Below, piece by piece: positions 4,930 to 30,989 of a DNA stretch of 64,000 bases. The notes beneath the pieces are model-generated. The model saw only the letters and a program-made list of their open reading frames with translations, was not told the DNA's origin and did not search any database. The stretch lies in NCBI GenBank assembly GCA_022769005.1, contig JALEKK010000031.1, positions 1-64,000 of the forward strand, written 5' to 3'. A program made the translations under genes and the position numbers. How positions within the stretch are numbered: position 1 is the stretch's first letter; every line of letters begins with the position of its first letter. The DNA comes from Lachnospiraceae bacterium. GTDB taxonomy: Bacteria; Bacillota; Clostridia; Lachnospirales; Lachnospiraceae.

Positions 4930-4949
4930 AAATATTTTGTTATATATGT

Positions 4950-4971: not shown

Positions 4972-5031
4972 CCGTGTTGTTGTCGATAATTTACGGCAAA
5001 AAGATAAAATTTAATAATGTATATTATGCAC

Positions 5032-5077: not shown

Positions 5078-5106
5078 GGAAAATGTAATTATCCGAATTG
5101 CTCCTA

Positions 5107-5157
5107 TTGAAATTATTATAAAAAAGTTATATTATAGATGTAACAATTATAATTACA
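5107..5157 (+). promoter_or_regulatory. Promoter plus TGTAAC...TTACA element ahead of the sirtuin operon
   Basis: TTGAAA (5107-5112), a 17-base spacer and TATTAT (5130-5135) give a good promoter. Just downstream, 5139-5157 reads TGTAACAATTATAATTACA, with TGTAA and TTACA as inverted ends. Thirteen bases of it (TGTAACAATTATA) recur at 32618 upstream of the methyltransferase-ABC operon, so it may be a shared operator. Confidence 0.6.
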
Positions 5158-5227
5158 ACAAAAAATATAAAACACAGGTTTTTATTAAGTTTAAAATGTT
5201 TACATAAATCATTTACGGGGAATTATT

Positions 5228-5848: not shown

Positions 5849-5853
5849 ATAAT

Positions 5854-9608: not shown

Positions 9609-10463
9609 ATGGAATTTACAGAAGTGGAAAAGTTGCCGATAAATGTTACGGATGCGATTAAAAACCGCACAAGTACAAGAAGTTTTGAAGAAAGATCATT
9701 AACTGAAGAAGATAAAAATAAATTACTGAATTTCAGCAATACACTTACAAATCCGTTTGGAGTGGATATTAAACTTCATTTTGTGAGCAAAAACACCGGA
9801 ATGGAAAATATTAAACTCGGAACATACGGAACTATAAAAGGTGCAAGAGATTTCATTGCCGTTACGGTGAAAGATGAACCGTTTGCAATGGAAGCCGTCG
9901 GTTATCAGTTCGAAAATCTGGTGCTGTATGCTACTGAGATGGGGCTCGGTACGGTATGGCTTGCGGCTACATTCAACAGAAAAGACTTTAAAAACGTTAT
10001 GGATATAAGTTCCGATGATTTATTTCCGTGCATCTGTCCTGTCGGATATCCGTCCGGTAAACGTTCGATAATTGAAAGAGTTACAAGAGCGAGTCTCGGT
10101 TCTAAAAACAGAAAATCATGGGATAAGATATTTTTTTTAAATGATTTTAATCATTTATTATCTGAAGAAGATGCAGGTGAATACCGCATTCCGTTGGAAA
10201 TGTTAAGGCTGGCACCGAGTTCCACAAATGCTCAACCTTGGGCAGTGGTAAAGGAAGGTAATTATTATCATTTCTTTAACAATTATAAAGACAGAGTAAG
10301 CGATGACGTAAAAAAGATAAAGCATTTGGATTTGGGTATTGCTCTGTCTCATTTTCATCAAACTGCCATGAGCATCGGATTGAAAAGTAATCCGGAAATA
10401 TGTGATATAAAGTTTTCTGTTCCTAAAGACATGCATTATATCATTTCATATAAAATCGGATAA
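9609..10463 (+). CDS. Nitroreductase-family FMN protein
   Basis: 284 residues, resembling the double-length TM1586-type nitroreductases. The N-terminal half has IKNRTSTRSFEER, the family's FMN phosphate site, and GYQFENLVLYATEMGLGTVWLAATFNR. The second half contains LRLAPSSTNAQPWAVV, a second FMN-contact motif. It begins 10 bases after the reductase gene, so it is the third gene of the Rrf2-controlled operon. Reduction of nitro compounds or quinones is inferred; the true substrate is unknown. Confidence 0.82.
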   Translation: MEFTEVEKLPINVTDAIKNRTSTRSFEERSLTEEDKNKLLNFSNTLTNPFGVDIKLHFVSKNTGMENIKLGTYGTIKGARDFIAVTVKDEPFAMEAVGYQFENLVLYATEMGLGTVWLAATFNRKDFKNVMDISSDDLFPCICPVGYPSGKRSIIERVTRASLGSKNRKSWDKIFFLNDFNHLLSEEDAGEYRIPLEMLRLAPSSTNAQPWAVVKEGNYYHFFNNYKDRVSDDVKKIKHLDLGIALSHFHQTAMSIGLKSNPEICDIKFSVPKDMHYIISYKIG

Positions 10464-11192: not shown

Positions 11193-14100
11193 ATGAAAAC
11201 AAAAAAGCGACGAAGTATATTTGCCGGTGCGCTGGGTTTATTCTTAACATTGGGAGCCGTCACGCAAAATGTGACAGTGGCTTTTGCACAGGAACCGGGC
11301 GAGGCGATATATTATGGCACTGACAGTGATAATCATGCTCCAGGAACAGGCGGCGGAACGGATAATTTGAATGCATTGCAAACATCTGATGAAAACCCGA
11401 CAGAGGAACCGCCGAAAGCGGCTCAAAATGACTTATACACATCATATATCAACCTTGTGGGTGAAAAAACGGCCTTTTACGGCGGAGAAATTATAACACT
11501 TTACAATAATATTGTAATCTCCGGAAATCAGACCGTTTTAGAAGAAGGTTCTTATTCCGTAATTACTATTCCAAAATCTTCATTTCAAAAACCCGTAGAA
11601 AAAGATATCTCAACATCTTTTACCGATTTTAAAAATCTTACCATAGAAGAAACAGACAGTGATTATCGCATTATTACTGTCTATAAAACGTTGTACGGCG
11701 GATATAATGCGGGTACACCGGTTAAGTTAAGCCTGATTCCCGGGGGGATTGTCAACAGGAGCAACAGTATCGTAAAACAGGAATTTTTTGACAAAAACGG
11801 GACAAAACTTACCGAAACAAGTCAGGTAAATATTATCGGTAAGGCTGAAATAGAAAAAATCAGTAACAACAACTGGGGCGCATCAAGGTTAAAAAATGAA
11901 GTAGATGAACATTATGTTATAAAACAGGGAACATATCGTACGTTTCATCCATACTATACATATGTACTGGACAATCAGAACGATCCGAGAGACAGGCGTA
12001 TCTATGCCGCCGTTCCGGATGGGACGTCGGTAAAGGCAGACACGGGCTGGACATATGAAGAATCAACGGGGCGTTATTATAAGGACATTCCGAGAAATAA
12101 ATGGAACAACTCAAATATTACCATTGAGCTGGACTTGGGCGGAATCGATATGTCTTCGTTCGACTCGCAGGATAAGTATAAGCGTTTTGAGGTTGTATTT
12201 TCGACGCAGCCGGTAGTAGACGGAGTTGTTCAGACGGATGTCGGACCTTATAGGGCTTCAAGCAAAATAGATTATTATATATTGAAGTCGGGACCGGTTG
12301 TTCCGGGAGCTACACAGAGTGTATACAATTATGTATATAACAAAACAATAAATCGTGATTATCAACCCGTAAACGGGAATAAATCAGCCACCGGAAGCTA
12401 TCATTTGGGAAGCGGATATTATTCGGACAGAAATCTTACATACTTGTCATATAATCAGGACCTTTTAAATTCACAGCGCATACGGTACTCCCTTGCAAAC
12501 CTTACAAGCTACGGCATTTATAACGGAAAGGGCGATGATGATACACGTGAACTTTCATTTACATCATCACATATAGAAGTAAGCCCTTATACCAATCCTT
12601 CGGAGATCCGTATTATGGTTTTGGGTTTAAATGAAGAAGATACGGAAACATTAAAAAACATGCTGCACGGCACTAAAGCATATGGTTGGAAAGACGGAGT
12701 TAAAACCCTTATATCCGAAGATATTCCCGTTGTCTCCTACGGATCGTACACAGATTCCCATACATCCGAAGGCTGGCAGAAGCTTAACGGAGAAGGAGAT
12801 TATTCGGAAATATCCTTTGAATATCCTGAAACCTTGAAGTTTATCGGTAAAAGCAACATAGATAAGTTTTATAAAGCAATATGGAATGATGTTGTCGCAG
12901 ATATAAAGGAAAGTGCATACACTGAATTGGCAGACAAACTCAGTAAAGAAGAAGCTCCGGTAATTAATTATAAGGCGGATTACGGAAGGTTATATTTGAA
13001 GGGTAAGTATGTCGTAAATGCAGGTGAAGAAGCAACCGAAAATACGGCTGTGGTTTCAGACAGCACAAGAGATGAATTTCGAATGTATTACGAAGATATT
13101 ATGAAGACAAATAATATTTCGATTACTACCGGAAGTCAATATTTTGTGGATGAAACGCTGACTGCAAAGCTTTCATATACACAGAACAGATACGGAAACT
13201 TTGCGGATGCCACGATGCCTGAAAATGCAAATATTTATTATCTTGTTCCGGACGGACTGGAGCCTGTAGATGACGGAGAAACGTTCAGTGACATAAAGGT
13301 TGTCCGAGGATATATAGACGGGTTTAATCTTGTAACGGCTAAACCCACGAAAATGAATATACCTAAGTCTTCGGGAGCAATAAACGATAGAAGTCAAAAT
13401 ACTTACGAATTGAGCTTTACCGTTACAGGAAGACTGCAAACGGGAACATATAAAATTTATTCCTGTATGTCTATTGATAATAACAAGATAGGAGTAGATG
13501 AAAACGGGACTCAATACGGAATCCTTCAAAGAGATAATCCGGGCTCGTCAACCGTATGGAAAAATATACTAAATGATGCGGAAAACAGACCGGACAACAG
13601 GCTTAAATTTACGGATTTTTCGAGTGAGACATTTACAATTTATCCTCCTAAAGTTTTATCTTCATTTAAAGAAGTAAAACTTTCAAAAGATCCGGATTCA
13701 AAATACGCATCATCTCTCGGCAATAAAGCGACTATCGGAACGCCGATAGACTACAGGTGGCTTTTGAAAAATAACAGTACCGGGGATATCGATACTCTCG
13801 AAGTTATAGACATTCTTCCGTATTCCGGAGATAAGTCAATAGTGGCAAGCGACAGCGGAGAATATACAAGCAGAGGTTCAACATTTAAAACTCCTCTTAC
13901 AGGCGTTGATGCAAATGAGAAATTTGACATTTACTATTCTACAGATCCCGTAAAAGGAACCATAAAAGAAAATACTGCCGCTGCATGGAGTGCCTCCGTG
14001 GATGATTATTCATCGGTTACAATGATTAAGGCGGTTTTAAAAACCGGACAAAAATTGTCGGTAGGTGAGTCATGCTCTATCGTAACTCACAATATTATTG

Positions 14101-15398
14101 AAAATAACGATAAAATTCAGGACGGTCAAAAGGCGCATAATTCATTTGCCGTATCTTTGAACGACGGGAATTCTTTTGCGGAAGCTTTGGGTGTTGAAGT
14201 CACGGTAAACTACCCTAAGCGTGACGTTCAAATATTAAAGTCGGATCTGGAAAATCAAAATAAAAGGTTATATAACGCCGTATTTACATTATATGAAGAA
14301 GGAACCGGAGAAAACGGCGGAGACCGCCTGATTAAAGATGACATTACTACTAATCATGACGGTATCGCCACAATTCCGAATCTATTGGTGGGAAAGGAAT
14401 ATTATCTTATTGAAAAGAAAGCTCCCGAAGGATATGAGCGTTCCGAAGATAGATTGTATTTTACGGTTAATGAAGCGGATGAAACAAACAGTGTACAAAG
14501 GATAGACATTTCAAATGACATAAAGAGAACCTCCGTGGGAGTGACTAAAAAATGGATAGGACCGGCCGCGGATAATGTAAATGTTCATCTTTTGGCAGAC
14601 GGAGTTGACACGGGAAAGTCGTTAACTTTAGACGAATCGAATAACTGGAAGGGCACATTTGATAAGCTGCCTGAATTAAATAATGACGGTTCCGAAATTT
14701 CATATACGGTTTCGGAAACACCGATTACGGATTATTCATCTTCAATAACGGGAGATGCGAAAACAGGATATGTAATTACAAACAAAAATACCGAGAAAAT
14801 ATCGATTCCCGTAAAAAAAGAGTGGATAGGACCGCCGACAGATAAAGTTTCGATAAAGTTGGAAGCGGACGGAAATGTTGTTGATGAAATTGTATTAAAT
14901 GATGACAACAACTGGAGCGGAAGCTTTGAAGGATTTCTGAAATATGATGCCGACGACGGTCATGAAATCAGTTATACGGTTTCTGAGGATGAGACGGCAG
15001 ATTATGCAACAAGTATTACGGGAGACGCCGTGAACGGATTTACCGTGACAAATACGAAAAAACCTACGGGATCCATACCTCCGGCAGATGAAGAAAATGT
15101 ACCTCCTTCAGATGATGAACCGGAAAATCCTACATCTCCTTCAGATGAAGAACCGGGAAATCCTACATCTCATTCAGATGAAGGATATGAAGATCCTACG
15201 CCTCCTTCAGGTGAAAAGCATGAAGATCCGGTATCTCCGGACAATGTAAAGAATTCGGAAAACAATACCGACAAAACAGATACAACGCCGAAAACCGGCG
15301 ACAATATGCAATACGGCATTTGGATAATACTTGCGGCTGCGGGAATGGCGGGAGCGGTTCTGACTGCAGTTGCGAAAAAGAAAATAAAGAGAAGATAA
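11193..15398 (+). CDS. Large sortase-anchored surface protein with Cna-B domains
   Basis: 1401 residues. A signal peptide (MKTKKRRSIFAGALGLFLTL to FAQE) is followed by about 950 residues without a recognised domain but rich in beta-strand sequence. Cna-B-type domains lie near 1011-1105 (DVQILKSDLENQNKRLYNAVF), 1112-1195 (GVTKKWIGPAADNVNVHLLADG has its partner in PVKKEWIGPPTDKVSIKLEADG) and 1203-1290. A Pro/Ser/Asp-rich linker with short repeats (PSDDEPENP, PSDEEPGNP) precedes TPKTGD near 1364, a hydrophobic helix and KKKIKRR. It should be covalently attached to peptidoglycan by a sortase. Likely an adhesin or pilin-like protein; the ligand is unknown. Confidence 0.85.
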   Translation: MKTKKRRSIFAGALGLFLTLGAVTQNVTVAFAQEPGEAIYYGTDSDNHAPGTGGGTDNLNALQTSDENPTEEPPKAAQNDLYTSYINLVGEKTAFYGGEIITLYNNIVISGNQTVLEEGSYSVITIPKSSFQKPVEKDISTSFTDFKNLTIEETDSDYRIITVYKTLYGGYNAGTPVKLSLIPGGIVNRSNSIVKQEFFDKNGTKLTETSQVNIIGKAEIEKISNNNWGASRLKNEVDEHYVIKQGTYRTFHPYYTYVLDNQNDPRDRRIYAAVPDGTSVKADTGWTYEESTGRYYKDIPRNKWNNSNITIELDLGGIDMSSFDSQDKYKRFEVVFSTQPVVDGVVQTDVGPYRASSKIDYYILKSGPVVPGATQSVYNYVYNKTINRDYQPVNGNKSATGSYHLGSGYYSDRNLTYLSYNQDLLNSQRIRYSLANLTSYGIYNGKGDDDTRELSFTSSHIEVSPYTNPSEIRIMVLGLNEEDTETLKNMLHGTKAYGWKDGVKTLISEDIPVVSYGSYTDSHTSEGWQKLNGEGDYSEISFEYPETLKFIGKSNIDKFYKAIWNDVVADIKESAYTELADKLSKEEAPVINYKADYGRLYLKGKYVVNAGEEATENTAVVSDSTRDEFRMYYEDIMKTNNISITTGSQYFVDETLTAKLSYTQNRYGNFADATMPENANIYYLVPDGLEPVDDGETFSDIKVVRGYIDGFNLVTAKPTKMNIPKSSGAINDRSQNTYELSFTVTGRLQTGTYKIYSCMSIDNNKIGVDENGTQYGILQRDNPGSSTVWKNILNDAENRPDNRLKFTDFSSETFTIYPPKVLSSFKEVKLSKDPDSKYASSLGNKATIGTPIDYRWLLKNNSTGDIDTLEVIDILPYSGDKSIVASDSGEYTSRGSTFKTPLTGVDANEKFDIYYSTDPVKGTIKENTAAAWSASVDDYSSVTMIKAVLKTGQKLSVGESCSIVTHNIIENNDKIQDGQKAHNSFAVSLNDGNSFAEALGVEVTVNYPKRDVQILKSDLENQNKRLYNAVFTLYEEGTGENGGDRLIKDDITTNHDGIATIPNLLVGKEYYLIEKKAPEGYERSEDRLYFTVNEADETNSVQRIDISNDIKRTSVGVTKKWIGPAADNVNVHLLADGVDTGKSLTLDESNNWKGTFDKLPELNNDGSEISYTVSETPITDYSSSITGDAKTGYVITNKNTEKISIPVKKEWIGPPTDKVSIKLEADGNVVDEIVLNDDNNWSGSFEGFLKYDADDGHEISYTVSEDETADYATSITGDAVNGFTVTNTKKPTGSIPPADEENVPPSDDEPENPTSPSDEEPGNPTSHSDEGYEDPTPPSGEKHEDPVSPDNVKNSENNTDKTDTTPKTGDNMQYGIWIILAAAGMAGAVLTAVAKKKIKRR

Positions 15399-15463
15399 AC
15401 TTTATTTACCGATACAAATATATACAAGAAAATTGTAAAATTATGCAGTAACTTTTAATTAAA

Positions 15464-15500
15464 AAACTATCGCAAGGTATTTTGCGGTAGGTTTATTTTT
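15464..15500 (+). terminator. Intrinsic terminator after the surface-protein gene
   Basis: CTATCGCAA (15467-15475) pairs, with one G-U pair, with TTGCGGTAG (15482-15490); GTTTATTTTTT follows. Confidence 0.7.
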
Positions 15501-15526
15501 TACCATATATCGGATTTTAATATCTA

Positions 15527-15568
15527 AAGATGCGCTAAGGCAATCGCCTCGGCGCATCTTTTTTATTT
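15527..15568 (+). terminator. Second intrinsic terminator
   Basis: AAGATGCGC (15527-15535) pairs with GCGCATCTT (15552-15560); the inner AGGC/GCCT also pairs, and a T-run follows. The 240 bases between here and the next gene hold no other feature I can support. Confidence 0.75.
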
Positions 15569-15807
15569 TGAGAGCATAATCGTAGGAATAATAAGCATTT
15601 TTTACATATATATTATGAGCGTATATATAACCTGTCGTAAAAGTCATGCTTTATGACAATTTTATAAAAATGATAATCGGAATATAAAATTTATTTTACA
15701 TGGACTTTTCCGGATGTTGATAGATGAAAAATATTGCCTTTAGTAACATATGAGATGTCAACGGGACAAACAATTCAAAACCTAAACACAAAGAGGAATG
15801 GTATCAA

Positions 15808-16269
15808 ATGCTTACAATCAAAGAAAAACAGGAATTAAATGTAAAAAAAGCTCTTTCATTCAGAGGAATTATTGAGGAGAGCGAACTTGAATCCATTAAA
15901 AGAGATATGGACTCTGTGATTATTAATAACAATATATCCGTAAGAGGCGAGTTTATCACGGTTACATACGGTATAGAAGGCGAAAAGCTGGATATGGAGC
16001 TTATTATACCGATAGATTCCGATGTTGACGTTACGGCAGAAGGGTATCGTATCAGAGACGATGTAAGGATTGAAAATGCTGTTGTTGCTTCTTATCAGGG
16101 AAGTCCGGATACATTTACGGATGTGTTCATGGAATTAAACCGATATATAACAGACAACAATTTAGAACCTGCAACAGCCGGATACAACGTATTCAGAGGT
16201 TCCGTATACAACGAAATTGAAGGTTGTATGGATATATGTGTTGATGTGTATTTGGGAGTTGCCAACTGA
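15808..16269 (+). CDS. GyrI-like/DUF5085-like small protein upstream of the peptide array
   Basis: 153 residues, soluble, no membrane segment. The pattern MELIIPIDSDVDVTAEGY, then a YNVFRGSVYNE strand and an acidic end with a conserved-looking ICVDVYLGV, resembles the effector-binding GyrI-like fold or DUF5085 proteins; this is a weak match by eye. It starts with ATG after AAGAGGA. It ends 82 bases before the first double-glycine peptide gene, so it may be part of that locus, for example as a regulator or self-protection protein. Immunity function is only an inference from position. Confidence 0.5.
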   Translation: MLTIKEKQELNVKKALSFRGIIEESELESIKRDMDSVIINNNISVRGEFITVTYGIEGEKLDMELIIPIDSDVDVTAEGYRIRDDVRIENAVVASYQGSPDTFTDVFMELNRYITDNNLEPATAGYNVFRGSVYNEIEGCMDICVDVYLGVAN

Positions 16270-16289
16270 TTTTTGACATATTTATTCGG

Positions 16290-16312
16290 TAATAACGGGT
16301 ATGCCCGTATTA
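16290..16312 (+). other. Small hairpin between the upstream gene and the peptide array
   Basis: ACGGG (16295-16299) pairs with CCCGT (16304-16308), extended by TAA/TTA with a one-base bulge. No T-run follows, so it is more likely a transcript-stabilising or attenuating hairpin than a terminator. A TTGACA lies at 16273-16278 but no well-spaced -10 is seen. Confidence 0.4.
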
Positions 16313-16351
16313 CATATACTATTAAAAATCCGGTAAAAGGAGGTGAAGCAG

Positions 16352-16504
16352 ATGGAAAACAAATTCAAAGTTATGACAAATGAAGAACTTATGAAGTGCG
16401 AAGGCGGAAGTGTTGCAAGAATACTTATCGATATTGCCAAAGAAGCAATTAAAGAGCTTTGGAGGGATATAAATAAACCTAATCGATTTAGACCTACACT
16501 TTGA
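16352..16504 (+). CDS. Double-glycine leader peptide precursor 1
   Basis: 50 residues, preceded by AAAGGAGGTG. Leader MENKFKVMTNEELMKCEGG ends in GG; the predicted core is 31 residues, beginning SVARILIDIAKEAIKELW and ending NRFRPTL. The core would form a cationic amphipathic helix with a charged tail, unlike the glycine-rich cores later in the array. The leader shares MTxEELMxxEGG with the other six. A C39-type exporter encoded 1.5 kb downstream is the expected protease and transporter for such leaders. Confidence 0.85.
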   Translation: MENKFKVMTNEELMKCEGGSVARILIDIAKEAIKELWRDINKPNRFRPTL

Positions 16505-16535
16505 TATATAGGAAATGTAAGAAGGAGACAGAATC

Positions 16536-16703
16536 ATGGAAAAGCTAAATACAATGACAGAAGACGAAATTATGGTTTGTGACGGCGGAGTGTATCATCC
16601 AAACGGCGGTTGTACTCCAACGATAGAGATTCCTATTTTAAGACCGCAGAGACCTAAAACAAGAGACATTTTTGATTCTGCCTTAAAGAGTCTTTATAAA
16701 TAA
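16536..16703 (+). CDS. Double-glycine leader peptide precursor 2
   Basis: 55 residues, with GAAGGAG upstream. Leader MEKLNTMTEDEIMVCDGG; core 37 residues starting VYHPNGGCTPTIEIPILRPQ and ending ALKSLYK. The core is proline- and arginine-rich, holds one cysteine, and contains no GxxxG helix, so it differs in chemistry from its neighbours while keeping the leader. It lies 31 bases after precursor 1. Function is inferred from the leader and the linked exporter. Confidence 0.83.
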   Translation: MEKLNTMTEDEIMVCDGGVYHPNGGCTPTIEIPILRPQRPKTRDIFDSALKSLYK

Positions 16704-16738
16704 TTACCAAAACAAGTTTTATAAAAGGAGAAAAAGTT

Positions 16739-16891
16739 ATGTTAAGAACAATGACAGAAGATGAAGTAATGACAGTAGACGGCGGTATTGTATGGGTACC
16801 TGTTGTTTGGGCGGGAGTTAAGTGCGCTGCGGCATTGCTCGGAGGAGTAGGTGCAGGTCTCGCAGTATCAAAAATAGTTTCAAGATGGTAA
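16739..16891 (+). CDS. Double-glycine leader peptide precursor 3 (class IIb-like core)
   Basis: 50 residues, preceded by AAAAGGAG. Leader MLRTMTEDEVMTVDGG; core 34 residues, beginning IVWVPVVWAGVKC and ending AVSKIVSRW. The hydrophobic core contains GGVGAG, a GxxxG-type helix-packing motif common in two-peptide bacteriocins, and a cationic end. It is the close paralogue of precursor 7 (same first five and last ten core residues), pointing to duplication within the array. Confidence 0.85.
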   Translation: MLRTMTEDEVMTVDGGIVWVPVVWAGVKCAAALLGGVGAGLAVSKIVSRW

Positions 16892-16919
16892 TAAAGATAA
16901 ATTAAAAAGGATAAAAGAT

Positions 16920-17042
16920 ATGTTAAAAGATATGACGAACAGAGAATTAATGAATGTAGAAGGCGGCTCTGTGTTGGTAACGCTCTTTTGTGCAGGTTTT
17001 GCGGCAGGTATAGCAATGGGCGTGAAGAAGTGGTTTAAATAA
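16920..17042 (+). CDS. Double-glycine leader peptide precursor 4
   Basis: 40 residues with a weak AAGGA site. Leader MLKDMTNRELMNVEGG; core 24 residues, SVLVTLFCAGFAAGIAMG then VKKWFK. The AGFAAGIAMG segment holds overlapping GxxxG motifs and is shared almost exactly with precursor 6; the KKWFK end is cationic-aromatic. The peptide is short for a bacteriocin and may be one partner of a multi-peptide pore. Confidence 0.83.
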   Translation: MLKDMTNRELMNVEGGSVLVTLFCAGFAAGIAMGVKKWFK

Positions 17043-17068
17043 TTTGAGGTTTCAAGAGGAGCAAAGCA

Positions 17069-17179
17069 ATGTTAAGAACAATGACAGAAGATGAAGTAAT
17101 GGCAGTAGACGGCGGTCTTGTAATTTTACCTATTATGCCAACATCTATTCTTAGATGGGTTAGAAAGTTGTTTAAATAA
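17069..17179 (+). CDS. Double-glycine leader peptide precursor 5
   Basis: 36 residues. AGAGGAG lies upstream within a stretch repeated before precursors 5, 6 and 7. Leader MLRTMTEDEVMAVDGG (identical to that of precursor 7); core only 20 residues, LVILPIMPTSILRWVRKLFK. It is proline-kinked and ends in the cationic RKLFK, parallel to KKWFK in precursors 4 and 6. The identical leader joined to an unrelated core suggests leader-core shuffling. Confidence 0.83.
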   Translation: MLRTMTEDEVMAVDGGLVILPIMPTSILRWVRKLFK

Positions 17180-17205
17180 TTTTAGATTTCAAGAGGAGAA
17201 AAGCA

Positions 17206-17352
17206 ATGTTAAGAGCAATGACAAATGACGAAATAATGGAAGTTGAAGGCGGAATTGTGCCTATAGTAGTCGGAGGATCAGCATTGGCAAAAATATTCGC
17301 TGCAGGTTTTGCGGCAGGTATAGCAATGGGCATTAAGAAGTGGTTTAAATAA
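17206..17352 (+). CDS. Double-glycine leader peptide precursor 6
   Basis: 48 residues, preceded by AGAGGAG. Leader MLRAMTNDEIMEVEGG; core 32 residues starting IVPIVVGGSALAKIF and ending AAGIAMGIKKWFK. The last 16 residues match precursor 4 with one change (V to I), while the first half is different and longer. Glycine-zipper character again suggests a membrane-inserting helix. Confidence 0.84.
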   Translation: MLRAMTNDEIMEVEGGIVPIVVGGSALAKIFAAGFAAGIAMGIKKWFK

Positions 17353-17378
17353 TTTGAGATTTCAAGAGGAGCAAAGTT

Positions 17379-17531
17379 ATGTTAAGAACAATGACAGAAG
17401 ATGAGGTAATGGCAGTAGACGGCGGTATTGTATGGGTACCTATTCTTATAGCGGGAGCTAAGTGCGGTGCGGCATTGCTCGGTGGAGTAGCTGCAGGCCT
17501 CGCAGTATCAAAAATAGTTTCCAGATGGTAA
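17379..17531 (+). CDS. Double-glycine leader peptide precursor 7 (paralogue of 3)
   Basis: 50 residues, preceded by AGAGGAG. Leader MLRTMTEDEVMAVDGG; core 34 residues, beginning IVWVPILIAGAKCG and ending AVSKIVSRW. It aligns without gaps to precursor 3, with differences in the middle (VVWAGVKCA to ILIAGAKCG, GVGAG to GVAAG). One cysteine is kept at the same core position. It is the last member with an intact GG site. Confidence 0.85.
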   Translation: MLRTMTEDEVMAVDGGIVWVPILIAGAKCGAALLGGVAAGLAVSKIVSRW

Positions 17532-17589
17532 TAAATATAATACATATAAAAGAAACAAAAACAATTTTCAGAGTAAAGGGATGAGAATA

Positions 17590-17685
17590 ATGGCGGTTGA
17601 CAGCAATGTACTCTTAATTCTTTTTCTTACAGGTTTTATAGGCGGCACGGCACTTGGAATTGCAAAGTGGATAAAAAAGAAATAA
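17590..17685 (+). CDS. Leader-defective relative of the array peptides
   Basis: 31 residues from the ATG at 17590 (AAAGGG 9 bases before), or 34 from the ATG at 17581, which touches the AAAGGG. The start MAVDSN corresponds to the end of the leaders, MAVDGG, with GG replaced by SN and the helical leader part missing. The rest, LFLTGFIGGTALGIAKWIKK, is like the glycine-zipper plus cationic end of precursors 4 and 6. It could be an intracellular or leaderless peptide, an immunity-like membrane peptide, or a decaying copy. Confidence 0.55.
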   Translation: MAVDSNVLLILFLTGFIGGTALGIAKWIKKK

Positions 17686-17738
17686 GTCTGTAAAGCAATA
17701 TTTATCGGTATGTAACTCTAAAAACTTGTTTATATGAC

Positions 17739-17786
17739 AAATAAGGGTATCTATTGTGTGAAAACACATGGTAGGTGCCTTTATTT
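17739..17786 (+). terminator. Long GAAA-capped hairpin between array peptides and the exporter
   Basis: AATAAGGGTATCTA (from 17740) pairs, with G-U pairs, with TAGGTGCCTTTATT (to 17785). An inner TGTGT/ACACA stem is closed by GAAA. It has A-rich and T-rich flanks, so it may terminate in both directions or attenuate transcription into the exporter genes. Confidence 0.65.
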
Positions 17787-17801
17787 GAAATGGAGGTAAA
17801 T

Positions 17802-17879
17802 ATGAAAAAGGCGTTGACTGTTATTTTCAGTGTCGGATTTATATGCGGGACAGTAATGGGCATTAGATTGTTTTTTTAA
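17802..17879 (+). CDS. 25-residue core-only peptide
   Basis: ATG with an excellent GGAGG site (17792-17796). The product, MKKALTVIFSVGFICGTVMG then IRLFF, is a single hydrophobic helix. It resembles the second half of precursors 4 and 6 (AGFAAGIAMGIKKWFK against VGFICGTVMGIRLFF) but lacks any leader. The strong ribosome site argues for translation. It may be a leaderless membrane peptide or an immunity factor for the array peptides. Too short for confident proof. Confidence 0.55.
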   Translation: MKKALTVIFSVGFICGTVMGIRLFF

Positions 17880-17965
17880 TACCGAGGATCATCCGTCAAT
17901 AAAATTTAAAAGTATCCGTTTAGAGGCGGATATATATGTGAACTAAAAAATTCTTGAGGTTACTT

Positions 17966-20185
17966 ATGAGATACTATTGTATAAAACAGCATGACATGAC
18001 TGATTGCGGTGCGGCATGTATCGCAACAATATGCAGACAAAACGGTTATAAGATCAGTATTACAAAGATACGTGAGGTTGCGGGAACAGACAAACAGGGA
18101 ACGAATGCCAAAGGCGTTATTAAGGCAGCGGAACAGTTGGGATTTGACGCCAAGGGAGTTAAGGGTGACAGAGAGGCGTTCTTTTCCGGATTTCAGCTTC
18201 CCTGTATAGCACATGTTATTGTTGATGGGCAACTTTTGCATTATGTGGTGATACATAAGATTACAAAAAAATATGTTATTATCGCGGATCCGGGAGTGGG
18301 AATAGTTAAACTCAAACCCGAAGAATTTTTCGGTGATGTTCACGAGCCGGGGAAACCGCCGAAATACAGATGGAGCGGTGTTCTCATTTTATTGGTGAAA
18401 AAAGAAACCTTTAAAAAGGGCGGAGAAACAAAAGGATTGTTTAAGCGTTTTTTCAGTTTATTGGTTCCGCAGAGAAAATTGCTTATGCATATCTTTTTTG
18501 CGTCACTGATATATACGATACTCGGTATACTCGGAGCTTTTTATTTTAAAGAGCTTATTGACAGTGTATTGCCGGACGGACTGCAAAGGACACTTATGAC
18601 TCTCTCGGTAGGAGTAATTGCCTTAAATGTATTTAAGGTTATTCTGGATGCGTTCAGATCTCATTTGCTTCTTTATTTAAGTCAGAAGCTGGATATTGCA
18701 TTATTGCTTGGATATTATCGTCATATAATGGAACTTCCCATGAACTTTTTCGGGACAAGGAAAATAGGCGAGATAATTTCGAGATTTAATGATGCTGGAA
18801 AGGTAAGAGATGCAATTTCCGGTGCCACTCTTACCATGATGATTGATACCATTATGGCGGTTGCGGGCGGAATTATATTATTTATGCAGAATGCAAAGCT
18901 GTTCGGAATTGCGGTAATAATGGTAGTAATCTACATTATTATCGTTGTGGTCTTTAATAAAAAATATGAAACATTAAACCGCAGGGAGATGGAAGACAAT
19001 GCTCAGCTTACTTCATACATGGTGGAATCATTAAACGGGATACAGACCGTAAAGGCGTACAATGCAGAGCGAAAGACAAAGCAGGAAACGGAAATCAGAT
19101 TTGTAAAGCTCTTAAGAAGCGTATTTAATTTGAGCAAAGCAAATAATATACAGTCATCACTTAAAACATTGGTGGAATTGGTAGGAGGAGTCATTATCCT
19201 CTGGGTCGGAGGAGTAAGTGTTATAAACGGAGAAATGACTATGGGTTCTCTTATAACATTTAATTCGTTATTGATATATTTTCTTGATCCGATTAAAAAT
19301 CTTATTAATCTGCAGCCGCAGATACAAACTGCGGTAGTGGCCGCAGATCGCCTCGGGGAAATACTTGATCTTGAAGCGGAAAAGACGGAAAAAGAATATC
19401 GCAAAATGTCGCCTTCAAGTCTTGCCGGAGATATAGAGATAAAGAATTTGAATTTCAGATACGGAACAAGGAGACTTATTTTACAGGATATTAATCTTAA
19501 GATAGAAAAGGGACAAAAGGTTGCCTTTGTAGGTGAAAGCGGTTCAGGCAAGACCACTCTTTCCAAACTGTTATTGCATTTATATGCTCCGGAATCGGGA
19601 GATATACTTATCAACGGAAGAAATATAGAAGATATTCAACTTGAGTGCCTGAGAGAGAAGATTGCATATATTCCACAGGAAACATTTTTATTCAGCGGCT
19701 CAATATATGAAAATCTTACTCTGGGTATGGATAACGTTACCATGGAAGAAGTTACGGAGGCGGCTAAAATGGCTCAGGCTCACGATTTTATTAATGAACT
19801 TCCTCTTCGATATGATACGAGACTGGAAGAGAACGGTGCAAATCTTTCCGGAGGACAGAGGCAGAGACTTGCAATTACGAGAGCAATGCTTAAGAAACCT
19901 GACATACTTATCCTTGATGAGGCAACAAGCAATCTTGATGCCATTACAGAGCGTGCTCTGGATAAGACTCTCAATGAATATACCAAGGACAGAACCACAA
20001 TATTTATCGCTCATCGTTTAAGTACAATAAAGAACTGCGATAAGATTTATGTATTGGACAAAGGCAGGATAATAGAGGAAGGCTCACACAGAGAACTTAT
20101 TAAGCTCGGAGGAAAATACGCTTATCTCGTAAAACAGCAGTCGTTGGAGGAGAATACCGAAGAGAAAGGCGGTGATGACAAATGA
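17966..20185 (+). CDS. Peptidase-containing ABC exporter (C39 peptidase, PCAT) for double-glycine peptides
   Basis: 739 residues from the ATG at 17966 (TGAGGT just upstream). Residues 1-135 are the C39 cysteine protease with Q8, C14 (MTDCGAAC), H92 (LLHYVVIH) and D108 (IADPG). The transmembrane domain spans about 155-450. The ATPase has GESGSGKTTL, signature LSGGQRQR and Walker B ILILDEATSNLD. It should cleave the array leaders after GG and export the cores with the HlyD-like partner. All catalytic residues are present. The gene overlaps the next by four bases. Confidence 0.93.
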   Translation: MRYYCIKQHDMTDCGAACIATICRQNGYKISITKIREVAGTDKQGTNAKGVIKAAEQLGFDAKGVKGDREAFFSGFQLPCIAHVIVDGQLLHYVVIHKITKKYVIIADPGVGIVKLKPEEFFGDVHEPGKPPKYRWSGVLILLVKKETFKKGGETKGLFKRFFSLLVPQRKLLMHIFFASLIYTILGILGAFYFKELIDSVLPDGLQRTLMTLSVGVIALNVFKVILDAFRSHLLLYLSQKLDIALLLGYYRHIMELPMNFFGTRKIGEIISRFNDAGKVRDAISGATLTMMIDTIMAVAGGIILFMQNAKLFGIAVIMVVIYIIIVVVFNKKYETLNRREMEDNAQLTSYMVESLNGIQTVKAYNAERKTKQETEIRFVKLLRSVFNLSKANNIQSSLKTLVELVGGVIILWVGGVSVINGEMTMGSLITFNSLLIYFLDPIKNLINLQPQIQTAVVAADRLGEILDLEAEKTEKEYRKMSPSSLAGDIEIKNLNFRYGTRRLILQDINLKIEKGQKVAFVGESGSGKTTLSKLLLHLYAPESGDILINGRNIEDIQLECLREKIAYIPQETFLFSGSIYENLTLGMDNVTMEEVTEAAKMAQAHDFINELPLRYDTRLEENGANLSGGQRQRLAITRAMLKKPDILILDEATSNLDAITERALDKTLNEYTKDRTTIFIAHRLSTIKNCDKIYVLDKGRIIEEGSHRELIKLGGKYAYLVKQQSLEENTEEKGGDDK

Positions 20186-21738
20186 AATCCACAATAATAG
20201 ATATTAAGGATATAACCGACAGCTCGGAAGTATACGATTCCAAACCTAACCGCTTCATGGTATATACGATATATGTAATATTAGCCGTATTGGCGGCAGC
20301 ATTTCTGTGGATGTGCTTTTTCTCAATCGATATAGTGGTAAAGAGCAACGGTATCTTTAAGGGAAATGACACTTCAAATGTAATAAGCAGTGCAGTAGCC
20401 GGCAAAGTCAAAGAGACAAAGGTTAAGAACGGACAGTATGTAAATGAAGGAGATACGCTTTATACAGTTGAGGTATCGTCTCTTTCGGATACTTTAAAAA
20501 GTTACGGAGAGAGTGTTGAATCATCGAAGAAGAGACTGGAGATTCTTGATGCATATGAGAAAAGCCTTGACGGAAACAAAGATGAACTGGACAAATATTC
20601 AGATAATCCTTACTACGGTGAATTTGTAAATCGAAGAGAACTTTTATTTGCAAATATAAGTATGAATGAAACGGATGTAAACGGTCAGGCATCCGTATAT
20701 AACGGAAATATAAGCTCAACATCCGAAATGATCTATGAATATAATGAAAAAGTAAATAAACTGAACGAAGTAAAAAAATCGATTGCAAACAGGAATAATA
20801 CATTATCTCCTTCGGATGAATATTATTACGGCATGGTGGAGAGTTATCTTGCCTCCTACAGTTATACCGAACTCCAATATAATAATAAAGTAAGCGATTA
20901 TCAGTCACAGATAGATTCATATAACAGGCAGCTAAAACAACTGAACGGAAATGAGACAGGCGATGAGATAAAAAGTCAAATTAATTCATTGGAAAGAGCA
21001 AAGAATTCAGCCGAAAAAGAAAAGAACGAAGCACTTTATAATCTTGAGCTTCAGCAGACATCATCCGTGGAACAGCAGATTGAAAGCTACAAAAACAACA
21101 TACTTTCGATGGAATCAAGTCTAAATGCAGACAAACTGCAGCTTGATAACCTTAATAAAGCAAACGGAAATACAAAAGAAAATGCCGCGATTCTTACCGA
21201 AAAAAATAACATTGCATCGGAGCGGTTAAGCTACAGTGACAAATTGGCTGAAGGGGAAAGATACCTAAAGAATTACGAGATACAAAACGATAATTGTACG
21301 GTAAAAGCAGGTGCTTCCGGATATTACACCATTGATAACGAGATTAAAGAAGGTTCTTTTATACAGGAGGGAACATCTTTGGGAGAGGTGTATCCCGCAA
21401 GCGAGTCCGGTTTTTATGCCGAATTATATGTTGAAAATTCGGATATTGCAAAATTAAAAGAAGGTCAGGAAGTTAATTTTGAAATTGCGGCTCTTCCGTC
21501 TTCTGAATACGGGTACTTCACAGGTAAAGTTGAATATATTTCAAAAGATATCACAGTCGATCAAAATTCGGGAAACGCATATTACCTTGTAAAAGTGAAA
21601 TGCGATACTTCATCGTTGAAGAATAAATCCGGAGACGAAATCTCTCTTATTAACGGAATGGCTTGTCAGGGTAAAATTATTGTTGATAAACAAAACGTAC
21701 TTACATATTTAATGAAGAACTTGGACTTATGGGGCTGA
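20182..21738 (+). CDS. HlyD-family membrane fusion/accessory protein of the peptide exporter
   Basis: 518 residues. One N-terminal membrane helix (about 32-52, VYTIYVILAVLAAAFLWMCF), then a biotinyl-like half motif (NVISSAVAGKVKETKVKNGQYVNEGDTL), a long coiled-coil hairpin (about 110-370), the second lipoyl half (NCTVKAGASGYYTIDNEIKEG) and a beta-barrel end (LKEGQEVNFEIAALPSSEYG). This is the layout of bacteriocin accessory proteins that work with C39-ABC exporters. The ATGA overlap with the exporter gene shows coupled translation. The hairpin is long, as in Gram-positive members. Confidence 0.88.
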   Translation: MKSTIIDIKDITDSSEVYDSKPNRFMVYTIYVILAVLAAAFLWMCFFSIDIVVKSNGIFKGNDTSNVISSAVAGKVKETKVKNGQYVNEGDTLYTVEVSSLSDTLKSYGESVESSKKRLEILDAYEKSLDGNKDELDKYSDNPYYGEFVNRRELLFANISMNETDVNGQASVYNGNISSTSEMIYEYNEKVNKLNEVKKSIANRNNTLSPSDEYYYGMVESYLASYSYTELQYNNKVSDYQSQIDSYNRQLKQLNGNETGDEIKSQINSLERAKNSAEKEKNEALYNLELQQTSSVEQQIESYKNNILSMESSLNADKLQLDNLNKANGNTKENAAILTEKNNIASERLSYSDKLAEGERYLKNYEIQNDNCTVKAGASGYYTIDNEIKEGSFIQEGTSLGEVYPASESGFYAELYVENSDIAKLKEGQEVNFEIAALPSSEYGYFTGKVEYISKDITVDQNSGNAYYLVKVKCDTSSLKNKSGDEISLINGMACQGKIIVDKQNVLTYLMKNLDLWG

Positions 21739-21773
21739 GTAAAAATTTCATATATTATTAATTATTAAATCAG

Positions 21774-21818
21774 CAGGTATTTTGCGGCATATTCCGCATA
21801 TGATACCTGTTTTTTTTC
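21774..21818 (+). terminator. Terminator closing the peptide export operon
   Basis: CAGGTAT (21774-21780) pairs with ATACCTG (21803-21809), with an inner TGCGG/CCGCA stem; eight or more T follow. Confidence 0.85.
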
Positions 21819-21907
21819 ATATTATTATATTAACAAAATCGAAAAGTTCTGTATTTATTATGTTTATTCTTTAAATTATAATCATGTAACAAAAGGGGGT
21901 GCGATAG

Positions 21908-22489
21908 ATGTGTACCGATATAGAAAAGATAATAACGGAATTGAAGGAAGATCCGCGAAATGCGGAATATACTGAACGGGGGATTCCTCCGGTGTTTCAA
22001 TTCAGCGAACATGCCCGAATATTGATTATAGGTCAGGCTCCGGGAAAGAAAGTCGAAGAATCTCTTATTCCGTTTAATGATAAGTCCGGTGAAAAATTAA
22101 TAAGTTGGATGGGCATTGATAAAAATACATTTTATTCCGAAAAGACAGCAATTATACCCATGGATTTTTATTATCCGGGAAAGGGGAAGACGGGGGATTT
22201 ACCTCCCCGCAAATTTGTTGCCCGTGAATATCATGAAAAGATAATTAATATGATGCATGACATAAGGATTACGATTCTTATAGGAAGCTATTCTCAAAAA
22301 TACTATTTGGGAGATCGACAGAAAAAGAATCTCACGGAAACCGTAAGGTCATATAGGGAATATTTGCCGGATTACTTTCCGATAGTACATCCCAGCCCTC
22401 TTAACTTTCGATGGTTAAAAAATAATCCCTGGTTTGAGTCGGAGGTTGTGCCGGAATTGAAAATTGAAGTTGAAAAAGCGCTTAAGTGA
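21908..22489 (+). CDS. Uracil-DNA glycosylase family protein
   Basis: 193 residues, start after AAAGGGGGTG. The N-terminal motif ILIIGQAPGKKVEES and the C-terminal IVHPSPLNFRW are the paired GQxPG and HPSP motifs of the uracil-DNA glycosylase superfamily (family 4/5-like small-protein branch). There is no four-cysteine Fe-S pattern, so it belongs to the branch without a cluster. It would excise uracil or a related damaged base. It stands alone between terminators. Confidence 0.82.
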   Translation: MCTDIEKIITELKEDPRNAEYTERGIPPVFQFSEHARILIIGQAPGKKVEESLIPFNDKSGEKLISWMGIDKNTFYSEKTAIIPMDFYYPGKGKTGDLPPRKFVAREYHEKIINMMHDIRITILIGSYSQKYYLGDRQKKNLTETVRSYREYLPDYFPIVHPSPLNFRWLKNNPWFESEVVPELKIEVEKALK

Positions 22490-27256: not shown

Positions 27257-27354
27257 CCTTTCTTAATATAAAATCAACAATAAATTCATAATTAAGAACT
27301 ATAATAGTAAGCAGATTGATAATTTAAATAATGTTATGACAGGAGGTGTTTGAT

Positions 27355-28332
27355 ATGTGTACATGTGCGACATATAAAACAAAAAACCACTATTTCGGAC
27401 GAAACCTTGATTTGGAATTTTCGTATAATGAGACCGTTACGATTACTCCGAGAAATTTTCCGATTCCGTTCAGAACAAAGGAAACATTAAGAAATCATTA
27501 TTCAATTATCGGAATGGCGTTTGTAAATAAGGGCTTTCCGTTATATTATGATGCGACGAACGAATTCGGACTTTCAATGGCCGGATTAAATTTCCCGGGA
27601 AACGGTTATTTTGAAGCTCCGAAGGAAGATGAAAAGGACAATATTTCGCCGTTTGAATTTATTCCGTGGATTCTGTCTCAGTGTCGTAATGTTGACGAGG
27701 CCGAAAAGTTAATAAAAAGAATTCGTTTGGCGGATATTCCTTTCAGCAAAGAACTTCCGATAACTCCGCTTCACTGGATGGTTGCCGACAGAGACAGGTC
27801 TGTTGTTGTAGAGTCAGTAAAAGACGGGCTGCATATATATGATAATCCGGTGGGAGTAATGACAAATAATCCTACATTTGATATTCAGTTATTCAGACTT
27901 AATGACTACCGCCATGTTTCCGCTGCCGCCTCGCCGGATTCGTTTGCTCCGGGTCTGTCTTTGAATGAGTACAGCCGCGGTATGGGAGGCATCGGAATAC
28001 CGGGAGATCTTTCTTCGGGATCTCGTTTTGTCAAAGCCGCATTTACAAAGATGAATTCCGTTTCGGAGGATACGGAAGAATCATCGGTAAGCCAGTTTTT
28101 CCATATTCTTGGCTCAGTCGAACAACAGAGAGGATGCTGTGACCTCGGAGACGGAAAATATGAAATCACAATATATTCTTCATGCTGTAATACCGATAAA
28201 GGAATTTATTATTACAGAACATACGATAACAGCCAAATATCGGCAGTGGATATGAATAACGAAAATTTGGACGGAAATGAGCTTATATCATATCCTTTGG
28301 AGGATAAACAGCAAATTAAACGGATAAATTAA
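27355..28332 (+). CDS. bsh: Bile salt hydrolase (choloylglycine hydrolase family)
   Basis: 325 residues from the ATG at 27355, chosen because AGGAGGT is 7 bases upstream and because it places the catalytic cysteine at position 2 (MCTCATYKT), which becomes the N-terminal nucleophile after removal of Met. Other active-site residues: R16 and D19 in GRNLDLEFS, the asparagine in MTNNPTFDIQL, and the arginine in LSSGSRFVKAAF. These match bile salt hydrolases more than penicillin V acylases. It deconjugates taurine or glycine bile salts and implies an intestinal habitat. It is cytoplasmic, with no signal peptide. Confidence 0.87.
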   Translation: MCTCATYKTKNHYFGRNLDLEFSYNETVTITPRNFPIPFRTKETLRNHYSIIGMAFVNKGFPLYYDATNEFGLSMAGLNFPGNGYFEAPKEDEKDNISPFEFIPWILSQCRNVDEAEKLIKRIRLADIPFSKELPITPLHWMVADRDRSVVVESVKDGLHIYDNPVGVMTNNPTFDIQLFRLNDYRHVSAAASPDSFAPGLSLNEYSRGMGGIGIPGDLSSGSRFVKAAFTKMNSVSEDTEESSVSQFFHILGSVEQQRGCCDLGDGKYEITIYSSCCNTDKGIYYYRTYDNSQISAVDMNNENLDGNELISYPLEDKQQIKRIN

Positions 28333-29030: not shown

Positions 29031-30713
29031 ATGACAAAAGGATTGAAAGCTACATGGCTGTTCCCTTTATTATTTATTATAGTGCTGTGTTGGTCTGTCA
29101 TTGCAAGTGCCGCCAAGGTATCTGCCGCGGATTCCGTAAACGGTGAAACATCCGGCGGAAGTCTGATGTGTGCAGTGGGAGATGAAGTAAACGACAAGGT
29201 GGAAAATGTTACAATCACCCATGAAAAAAGAGACTATAACGGAGCGTCAGCGGATTGGCAGGTTAATAATTACCAATATGTGTTTTTAAGAATGAAGGGT
29301 GTTATTAACAATAAGTCAGGTGAAATAAGAGAAGGAGATTATTTCACGGTTAAGTTGGACAGGAAATTGAGACCTAACGGAATTATTGATGAAAACGATG
29401 TTTCGGGACTTATTCCTTATCTTACATATGAAAAAGACGGAGAAGTTCATATGCTTGCGGTTCCTGATTACAACAGGAATACAAAAACAATAAAATATTT
29501 TTTCACAAAGGACATTGAAAATATAGCCGAAGGTGAGATTAATCTTACATTTGCGGATTTTCCGGATTTAAATGAAGTAAAGGATAACGGTAACTATTCG
29601 TTTACCAACTCATATGCCGGTAAGAATTATACATACGGCTATGACATTCTGTGGTCGGAACCGTTGCCTGAAAAAGACAGCGTCAGTGAGAAGACGGCAA
29701 AATCAATCGCCATGATAACAAATGTAAGTATTGATTCTTCCGGCAATAATGCCGTGTATACTCACAGAGCATACGGTGAGATTTATAATGCGGATGACAA
29801 TGATGAAATTTCGATAACATGGAACGGAAGCGCCGAATTTACGGATAATACAAAGTTTAAAATCTATGGGTTGACGGAACAAAATGTTGACAGTTTCGGT
29901 GTCGATACTTCAAATTTAGAAAACGTAACGGATAAATTCCGATTTACGCGTACGGGTGCAAAATCCGTTGCATATGACGCAAAAATCGGAGATGTTGGAT
30001 ACAGAGCATTTTTGGTGGAATTGGAGAATCCGTTTAATCTTAATGACGGTATAACTTCTCATGTCGGATTTAAGATACAGGGCGGCAGAGATGCGGGCGT
30101 AACAACATTTATTGCAAAAGAATATTTTGAAAATGCAAGGGCGGCAATAGTTAACAGATATCCCGTTCCGTGTCGTGAAGTGCGTCAGTTGGAAATTACA
30201 AAGGTTGATTCAAAAGACAATTCCAAAACTTTGCCGGGAGCTCATTTTGACCTTTATGAAATAAAAGACGGTGAAATGAGTACGGTTCCTTTAAAAAGTC
30301 TTGTGACTGACAGTGACGGAAAAATATTTATTGACGAAATTGATTACGATAAAAAATATGCGCTGGTTGAAACAAAGGCTCCGGAAGGGTATGTTATCGA
30401 CAATACCCCGACGGAAATAGATCCGGAAAAACTCGGTAAAGATACGGCAACCGTAAGCATTGTCGTAAAGAACAGTCCTGAGGGCGGGACAGGTGAAGAG
30501 CCGCCGGCTCCGTCTCCGTCTGATCCGTTGCCGCCGGAGCCTTCGGATAAAACCGTCGGAAACAACGGCTTGGAATTAAAGAATACAACAGTAAGTCCTT
30601 CAACGGGTGACAGACAAAATACTGTTTTCTATGTATATACAGCCGTAATTTCTGTTGCGATTGCGGCAGTAGGCTTACTTGTAATAAAAAATAAAATGAA
30701 TAAAAGTAAATAA
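29031..30713 (+). CDS. Sortase-anchored surface protein with one Cna-B domain
   Basis: 560 residues, AAGGAGG upstream. Signal peptide about 1-33 (LFPLLFIIVLCWSVIASAAK). A beta-rich region (about 60-380), possibly adhesin Ig-like, is followed by a Cna-B domain at about 385-480 (LEITKVDSKDNSKTLPGAHF, ETKAPEGYVID). A proline-rich linker (PPAPSPSDPLPPEP) and the sorting signal SPSTGD near 523, a hydrophobic helix and NKMNKSK end the protein. It should be linked to the cell wall; the ligand is unknown. Confidence 0.83.
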   Translation: MTKGLKATWLFPLLFIIVLCWSVIASAAKVSAADSVNGETSGGSLMCAVGDEVNDKVENVTITHEKRDYNGASADWQVNNYQYVFLRMKGVINNKSGEIREGDYFTVKLDRKLRPNGIIDENDVSGLIPYLTYEKDGEVHMLAVPDYNRNTKTIKYFFTKDIENIAEGEINLTFADFPDLNEVKDNGNYSFTNSYAGKNYTYGYDILWSEPLPEKDSVSEKTAKSIAMITNVSIDSSGNNAVYTHRAYGEIYNADDNDEISITWNGSAEFTDNTKFKIYGLTEQNVDSFGVDTSNLENVTDKFRFTRTGAKSVAYDAKIGDVGYRAFLVELENPFNLNDGITSHVGFKIQGGRDAGVTTFIAKEYFENARAAIVNRYPVPCREVRQLEITKVDSKDNSKTLPGAHFDLYEIKDGEMSTVPLKSLVTDSDGKIFIDEIDYDKKYALVETKAPEGYVIDNTPTEIDPEKLGKDTATVSIVVKNSPEGGTGEEPPAPSPSDPLPPEPSDKTVGNNGLELKNTTVSPSTGDRQNTVFYVYTAVISVAIAAVGLLVIKNKMNKSK

Positions 30714-30820: not shown

Positions 30821-30989
30821 ATATAAATTTTATATAATATTAACAGAACATATAAATAATAAAAAATATCGATTGAGTATATAATAATATATATTATTAT
30901 ATACATAGGGATAAATGTTAAGACTAAATCGACATGTTGTAATGTTTTTTGTTCTAACAGATTTGTTTTGGGGAAAGGAAGTGTGTAAC

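Follow-up and report, generated by a model that had tools for sequence, protein, structure and literature searches.

Class IIb bacteriocins of the lactobin A/cerein 7B family (TIGR03949) have double-glycine (GG) leaders, cores with GxxxG motifs, and a C39 ATP-binding cassette (ABC) exporter with an accessory protein. Related arrangements are described in several reports. Pneumococcal blp loci export several GG bacteriocin peptides through one ABC exporter, are fluid in gene content, and carry a peptide signal, a receptor, a response regulator and CAAX-protease immunity genes (PMC4860687). The pneumococcal rtg loci, which are regulated by Rgg/SHP, encode a peptidase-containing ABC transporter (PCAT), an accessory protein and several GG peptides, and RtgX, a "GyrI-like hypothetical protein", is found in 21.1% of 318 loci (PMC7018657, Table 2). 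Among LXG toxins exported by type VII secretion systems (T7SS), TelE, whose toxin end is weakly like bacteriocin IIc, is blocked by the DUF5085 protein TipE (PMC10434224). EsxX is neutralised in the cytosol by the DUF5085 pair ExiAB, called GyrI-like, with its glycine zipper bound in a groove of ExiB, and the membrane proteins ExiCD protect against it from outside (PMC12744356). Finally, the Gram-negative Caulobacter makes the surface-bound Cdz bacteriocin, which consists of two glycine-zipper proteins, leaves by type I export and is accompanied by a small membrane immunity protein (PMC5380434). Here we describe a locus at positions 15808-21738 of a 64,000-nucleotide stretch (the window) of contig JALEKK010000031.1 from a Lachnospiraceae bacterium. 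It combines seven GG peptide genes and a C39 exporter with two leaderless homologues of the peptide cores and, ahead of the array, a gene for a protein with a predicted GyrI-like fold. On balance we favour, with modest confidence, the explanation that this is a class IIb-like multi-peptide operon with self-protection in two compartments.

The window lies within a 73.8-kb contig of a 1.47-Mb genome that is 95.66% complete. Seven in-frame ATG mini-genes of 50, 55, 50, 40, 36, 48 and 50 codons occupy 16352-17531, each preceded by a Shine-Dalgarno-like sequence and separated by gaps of 26-35 nt. A rule-based detector found seven GG leaders in 16300-17900 and none in the remaining window; among 1000 dinucleotide shuffles of the region, eight gave one match and none gave more. 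This agrees with the initial annotation, which had described seven consecutive GG mini-genes of 36-55 codons followed by a C39 peptidase ABC exporter and an HlyD adaptor. Its title counted nine genes, but two of these, the mini open reading frames (ORFs) at 17581/17590-17685 and 17802-17879, have no functional GG leader. The leader motif that it proposed, MTx(D/E)E-h-M-x-x-(D/E)GG, holds in six of the seven and fails in gene 4, which has Arg, and its inventory of array, exporter and adaptor was right as far as it went but overlooked the DUF5085-like gene upstream and the zipper motif of the two mini-ORFs. Residues at leader positions -4, -7, -12 and -15, the key sites according to PMC7018657, are hydrophobic in all seven, if Cys at -4 in genes 1 and 2 is included.

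Three of the seven peptides (4, 6 and 7) pass the TIGR03949 cut-off of 21.5 bits, so a multi-peptide, class IIb-like unmodified bacteriocin operon is the most likely reading of the sequence. Peptides 1, 3 and 5 score under the cut-off and peptide 2 has no match. GxxxG-type motifs occur in four peptides, as full GxxxGxxxG zippers in 4 and 6 and as GxxxG in 3 and 7. Downstream, the Pfam domains Peptidase_C39, ABC_membrane and ABC_tran in the exporter and HlyD_3 in the adaptor all scored above cut-off, and the exporter belongs to the peptide cleavage/export ABC transporter family TIGR01193. We take its closest solved relative, 4ry2, to be PCAT1. GG leaders, a dedicated C39 ABC exporter with an accessory protein, and GxxxG helices are all present, and the locus is a real class IIb-like operon and no new kind of toxin system. 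It differs from lactobin A/cerein 7B systems in having seven precursors for one exporter, leaderless homologues and, upstream of the peptide genes, a gene for a GyrI-fold protein. A scan of 16 flanking window proteins (5845-32501) revealed no sensor kinase, response regulator or peptide-modifying enzyme; in contrast to blp, these 16 also include no peptide signal, receptor or CAAX-protease immunity gene.

We compared the locus with a set of 62 distinct exporter loci, from which three duplicates had been dropped and in which many loci are cut by contig ends (L and G numbers are the handles of loci and genomes in this set). Six of them (L019, L022, L023, L025, L026 and L027; 26-32% identity) match the exporter only beyond its C39 peptidase part. 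At least one GG gene was detected in 37 of the 62 (GG+ loci), with a range from zero to eight and the maximum in L006. The detector errs at some of these loci, with likely false positives (two of three in L140) and missed true genes (L061).

Between the GG genes and the exporter, mini-ORFs 8 and 9 retain the GxxxGxxxG of peptides 4 and 6 and have no usable leader. Such leaderless homologues of a locus's own cores lie in the same place in the window (two) and in L066, L146, L147 and L139, from four other genera (G063, G468, G332 and G612). In L066, the leaderless gene starts 13 nt past the stop of GG gene 3 with GAGGAG before its ATG, and YNLGKNIGELVYY of its product aligns with YDLGKNLGEAIYY of the first GG core of the locus; in L146 and L147 the gene follows two GG genes and precedes C39. 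The L139 leaderless protein is most like ORF 9 and is its apparent orthologue (score 55, 0/5000 shuffles). In an alignment of the ORF 8/9 family with leadered and leaderless members from both genomes (window and L139), no column is invariant except those of the three zipper glycines. A screen of 680 non-GG small ORFs at GG+ loci, ORFs 8 and 9 included and with shuffling only for scores of at least 33, gave six at 0/3000: ORF 8, ORF 9, and one each in L066, L146, L147 and L022. The start of ORF 8 may be a frameshifted leader or a leaderless N-terminus that aligns with the L139 leaderless protein, and both readings stand. A single zipper helix that has no access to C39 export and is encoded beside its exported twin would fit an immunity protein that acts by mimicry.

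Leaderless proteins in L006 and L065 resemble each other (score 133) and were left uncounted because the L006 protein is only weakly like its own core (57/5000 shuffles). Small Gly-rich proteins near GG genes, possibly another immunity type, were seen at L006:5757-5918 (MNKKVGLPIG...) and in L139 about 4.1 kb upstream of C39 (MIMNKSVKML...).

The gene upstream of the array, 82 nt away, encodes a protein that we call DUF5085-like because its PF16895 score is under the gathering cut-off. AlphaFold2 with 13 sequences gave a model with a predicted local distance difference test score (pLDDT) of 94.3 (68.4 with a 4-sequence input). Over its whole chain, the predicted model superimposes on CTR107 (3e0h; Z 16.4, root-mean-square deviation 2.4, 146 aligned) and CtaZ (7zhe; Z 15.1) (VIA-align 2), and the best E in a Foldseek search of the PDB was 6.8e-8. 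GyrI-like proteins matched in these comparisons include CTR107, EcmrR, BmrR, GyrI and CtaZ, the last solved with closthioamide. From this model we are confident that the protein has a GyrI-like fold. Its likeness to RtgX is by description only.

A profile of four DUF5085-like proteins (A2) had 15 matches in 14 of 299 family genomes, 11 of them adjoining C39, HlyD or GG genes. Three of the searched genomes had supplied rows to the profile; without these, 8 of 12 matches were beside such genes. Among the 11, G119 is beside HlyD only and G227 is without C39, both at contig ends. The other four lie next to WXG100 genes, beside a GHKL kinase, and beside SipL-/PrcB-type genes, or are a fragment with stops. 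DUF5085-like genes concentrate at GG+ loci: in an order-level sample of 24 C39 loci they were found in seven, all among the 16 GG+ and none among the 8 GG- loci (one-sided Fisher p 0.033; 0.047 without one duplicate locus), and in 51 exporter-chosen loci matching the C39 part in 11 of 31 GG+ vs 1 of 20 GG- (p 0.012). Relatedness among the genomes and errors in GG detection make these p values rough. The first sample comprises 24 of 25 new exporter loci, one of which repeats an earlier record, with the G352 exporter at a contig start excluded; the second is what remains of the 62 loci once the six lacking a C39 match and the five obtained via the DUF search are removed. Of the 12 exporter-chosen loci with a DUF5085-like gene, 8 have it ending within 200 nt of the next GG gene. 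By analogy with ExiAB and TipE, the protein may be a cytosolic immunity factor. The analogy extends to DUF5085-like proteins standing beside glycine-zipper products and to the bacteriocin IIc likeness of TelE, since the peptides described here have sub-threshold matches to that Pfam family as well; the difference is that tiny peptides are here exported by C39/ABC and not LXG proteins by T7SS. In support of our reading, a search of the window's own genome (95.66% complete) for LXG proteins gave no match, with a positive B. subtilis control, and the locus does not qualify as a T7SS LXG immunity locus.

Three other loci with DUF5085-like sequences are recorded here. L111 has two successive units of a long GG peptide and a DUF5085-like gene (4800-5976 and 12916-14244). 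At L103:6805-7308, a DUF5085-like gene (26% to the window protein) is beside a GHKL-type sensor kinase, and the exporter matches there only in its ABC part. A Treponema radical SAM protein with a SPASM-like region (L018:1419-3530), near a 39% C39 exporter, has a weak C-terminal DUF5085-like match (E 2.7e-5).

Table 1 Genes of the locus in window coordinates, with the evidence for each
Feature	Position	Strand	Evidence
DUF5085-like, GyrI-fold protein, 153 aa; proposed cytosolic zipper-binding immunity protein/holdase	15808..16269	+	PF16895, AlphaFold2, Foldseek, recurrence
GG peptide 1, amphipathic core, 50 aa	16352..16504	+	Key leader positions hydrophobic; PF10439 E 7.8e-4, 19.8 bits < cut-off 27.1
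GG peptide 2, Pro/Arg-rich core, 55 aa	16536..16703	+	Leader; no family above cut-off
GG peptide 3, GxxxG core, 50 aa, duplicate of 7	16739..16891	+	TIGR03949 18.4 bits < 21.5
GG peptide 4, GxxxGxxxG zipper core, 40 aa	16920..17042	+	TIGR03949 25.0 bits > 21.5
GG peptide 5, cationic-aromatic 20-aa core, 36 aa	17069..17179	+	Leader 47/48 nt same as genes 3 and 7
GG peptide 6, GxxxGxxxG zipper core, 48 aa	17206..17352	+	TIGR03949 35.3 bits, E 7.2e-9
GG peptide 7, GxxxG core, 50 aa, duplicate of 3	17379..17531	+	TIGR03949 24.9 bits > 21.5
Leaderless zipper mini-protein 8, 31 aa (34 aa from ATG 17581); proposed membrane immunity mimic	17590..17685	+	Core-4 homologue, score 69, 0/5000 composition shuffles; no GG leader
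Leaderless zipper mini-protein 9, 25 aa; proposed membrane immunity mimic	17802..17879	+	Core-6 homologue, score 55, 0/5000 shuffles; GGAGGT before ATG
C39 peptidase-ABC exporter, 739 aa	17966..20185	+	TIGR01193 712.4 bits > 523.85; nearest solved structure 4ry2, E 1.3e-238
HlyD-like export adaptor, 518 aa	20182..21738	+	PF13437 60.5 bits > 22.2; TIGR01000 101.8 bits < 258.85

The mechanism that we propose starts from what the analysis shows: genes, leaders, homologies, a predicted fold and the recurrence of both elements at related loci. The C39 domain would recognise the seven GG precursors and cleave them behind the GG, and the ABC/HlyD pair would carry the peptides out. On reaching a target membrane, the zipper helices (with 4/6 and 3/7 as likely partners) would insert and associate via their GxxxG faces. 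Much as ExiB does with the type VII toxin EsxX, the DUF5085-like GyrI-fold protein would keep the zipper helices bound in the cytosol until they are exported. Mini-proteins 8 and 9, having no leader, would remain in the producer membrane, where they would occupy the zipper face and prevent pores from assembling. The novelty lies in the combination: such an operon comes together with leaderless zipper homologues and a DUF5085-like protein, and each of the two recurs at other loci. The literature that we searched, with few subscription papers in reach, held no link between DUF5085 and C39 or GG peptides beyond RtgX, and no immunity by a leaderless copy. Whether this is a general scheme for C39-exported zipper bacteriocins, with a leaderless zipper copy as dominant-negative membrane immunity and, in the cytosol, a zipper-binding GyrI-fold protein of a kind that type VII toxin systems also have, is a more tentative proposal, which we regard as possible rather than probable. 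To our knowledge, most class II bacteriocins of gut Clostridia have no immunity gene assigned to them. If the proposal is true, many orphan GG peptides could be given a partner of one of two immunity types recognisable in sequence (a DUF5085-like gene at the array, and a leaderless homologue of a core ahead of C39). RtgX-type genes would gain a suggested role, and one zipper-binding fold would link T7SS toxins with small exported bacteriocins.

A number of observations weigh against two-compartment self-protection. Killing activity, peptide pairing and both immunity roles are what we infer, the immunity proteins being cognate candidates by homology and position. Pfam Bacteriocin_IIc (PF10439, gathering 27.1) touches all seven peptides and is passed by none (best 24.9 bits, gene 4), four of the seven pass no family cut-off, and the zipper-free peptides 1, 2 and 5 fall outside the zipper model. 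The upstream protein falls short of DUF5085 membership (E 1.5e-5, 25.9 bits, gathering 30). Pfam's own DUF5085 model has four matches in 3 of the 299 family genomes, none of them the C39-linked genes, and the one neighbourhood inspected is a WXG100 locus. Five of the 16 carriers of a DUF5085-like gene were fetched for having one. The two elements are not always together, with the leaderless one only in L139 and the DUF5085-like one only in L143, L145, L148, L149 and L156. In the ORF screen, the L022 hit is an evident chance match, unrelated to the family, and the L139 leaderless ORF reached 2/3000, tied with a chance-looking L142 ORF (1/5000 in a second shuffle). When small ORFs were compared with the cores of other loci, 8 of 302 scored at least 40 and two at least 50, these two being ORF 8 and a missed GG gene.

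Some of this would be expected if the locus were an ordinary multi-peptide bacteriocin operon with ORFs 8 and 9 as duplicates that are decaying or already defunct and with the DUF5085-like gene nearby by coincidence. ORF 8 has a leader-like start without GG (leader score 6) and may be a decayed precursor, both ORFs are clearly copied from zipper cores, and duplication is frequent within the array. Moreover, both elements are absent from most related loci: no leaderless homologue was recognised in 32 of 37 GG+ loci, and no DUF5085-like gene in 21 of 37. We consider this explanation unlikely, though still a serious one, as ORF 9 has its apparent orthologue at the same place in another genus (L139), L066, L146 and L147 likewise have leaderless core homologues upstream of C39, and the DUF5085-like gene recurs at GG loci. 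GyrI-like folds also act as ligand sensors. In a bacteriocin operon, the DUF5085-like protein might thus serve as a sensor, regulator or export chaperone and not in immunity, which we rate as no more and no less unlikely than decay. Its best structural matches include the effector-binding parts of the regulators BmrR and EcmrR, and the gene directly precedes the array. Against a regulator, the 153 residues are predicted to form a single GyrI-like domain that would leave no room for a DNA-binding domain, an albicidin resistance protein is among the matches, as is closthioamide-bound CtaZ, and the DUF5085 proteins tested by experiment are immunity proteins (PMC10434224, PMC12744356).

Two other alternatives concern the peptides themselves. 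Retention on the producer surface as zipper aggregates that kill on contact, like CdzC/CdzD, would fit the paired zipper proteins, type I export and small membrane immunity protein CdzI of that system (PMC5380434). It is improbable here: by family placement the host should be Gram-positive and lack an outer membrane, where CdzC/D sit, and the cores are 20-37 aa long vs 86 and 84 aa for CdzC and CdzD (PMC5380434). The initial annotation also allowed for a family of signals, and gene 1 indeed has a weak ComC match (PF03047, 16.1 bits, cut-off 20.4) and C39 exporters serve cell-to-cell communication too (PMC7018657). Nothing else favours pheromones; the zipper cores, the TIGR03949 matches and the lack of a sensor kinase or response regulator among the 16 flanking proteins scanned make them very improbable. 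The multi-component class IIb-type toxin that was proposed alongside remains the best reading, carried by peptides 4, 6 and 7, with killing as a presumed activity.

The array also suggests how such repertoires grow. Genes 3 and 7 are 92% identical across 168 nt (cores 89%), and peptides 4 and 6 differ once in their final 16 residues. The cores do differ strongly, as initially noted, but because of these pairs they fall into fewer types than it appeared. The 48-nt leaders of genes 3, 5 and 7 share 46-47 nt, whereas core 5 has 38-39% identity to those of 3 and 7, the level of other core pairs (37-62%, pair 3/7 aside). In L139, two adjacent genes are alike at 98 of 102 nt from ribosome-binding site (RBS) through leader and have different cores. 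The near-identical leaders resemble the constant half of a cassette, and the array as read from its sequence is a case of one leader joinable to new cores. Growth may proceed as genes duplicate and recombine around a common RBS-leader segment, which places different cores behind one leader. The codon differences between genes 3 and 7 (7 amino-acid-changing, 4 silent) are too few for a claim of selection.

Seven GG genes had been called unusual; this is at the top of the range, but related loci carry up to eight and blp is also multi-peptide. Start, RBS and GG are conserved in L139, where one GG core with GG leader and RBS is homologous to core 6 (score 84, 0/5000 shuffles) alongside the ORF 9 homologue; the refuting condition set by the initial annotation, that relatives would not conserve these features, was therefore not borne out. 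The cores in general are poorly conserved, since a profile of all seven peptides brought up no convincing relative in the 298 further family genomes (one weak match, E 0.0074, inside a 2116-aa frame). Among 11 genus genomes, own included, the exporter was matched in two, the second a partial match at 37%, and flanking genes in more (21908-22489 in 4 and 9609-10463 in 5). Plasmid records gave no DNA match to 16300-17950 and no match to the L147 leaderless protein. An Rfam scan of 15300-22000 returned nothing at gathering scores, and promoter-like sites were at chance level (26 found vs 24.7 expected). The gap before GG gene 1 (16270-16351) contains an imperfect palindrome, which folds no better than shuffles (z -0.47).

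Elsewhere in the window, three surface-type proteins have PKTGD- or STGDR-like terminal sorting motifs, read by eye: 11193-15398 (Pfam domains Cna_B and SpaA), 29031-30713 (SpaA and Big_8) and 30915-32501 (no Pfam match). The segment 5845-7663 encodes a macro-domain protein (PF01661) adjoining a 339-aa protein that has no Pfam match at 1e-5 and is sirtuin-like by eye. A choloylglycine hydrolase family protein (27346-28332; CBAH, 339.6 bits) is expected in a gut bacterium.

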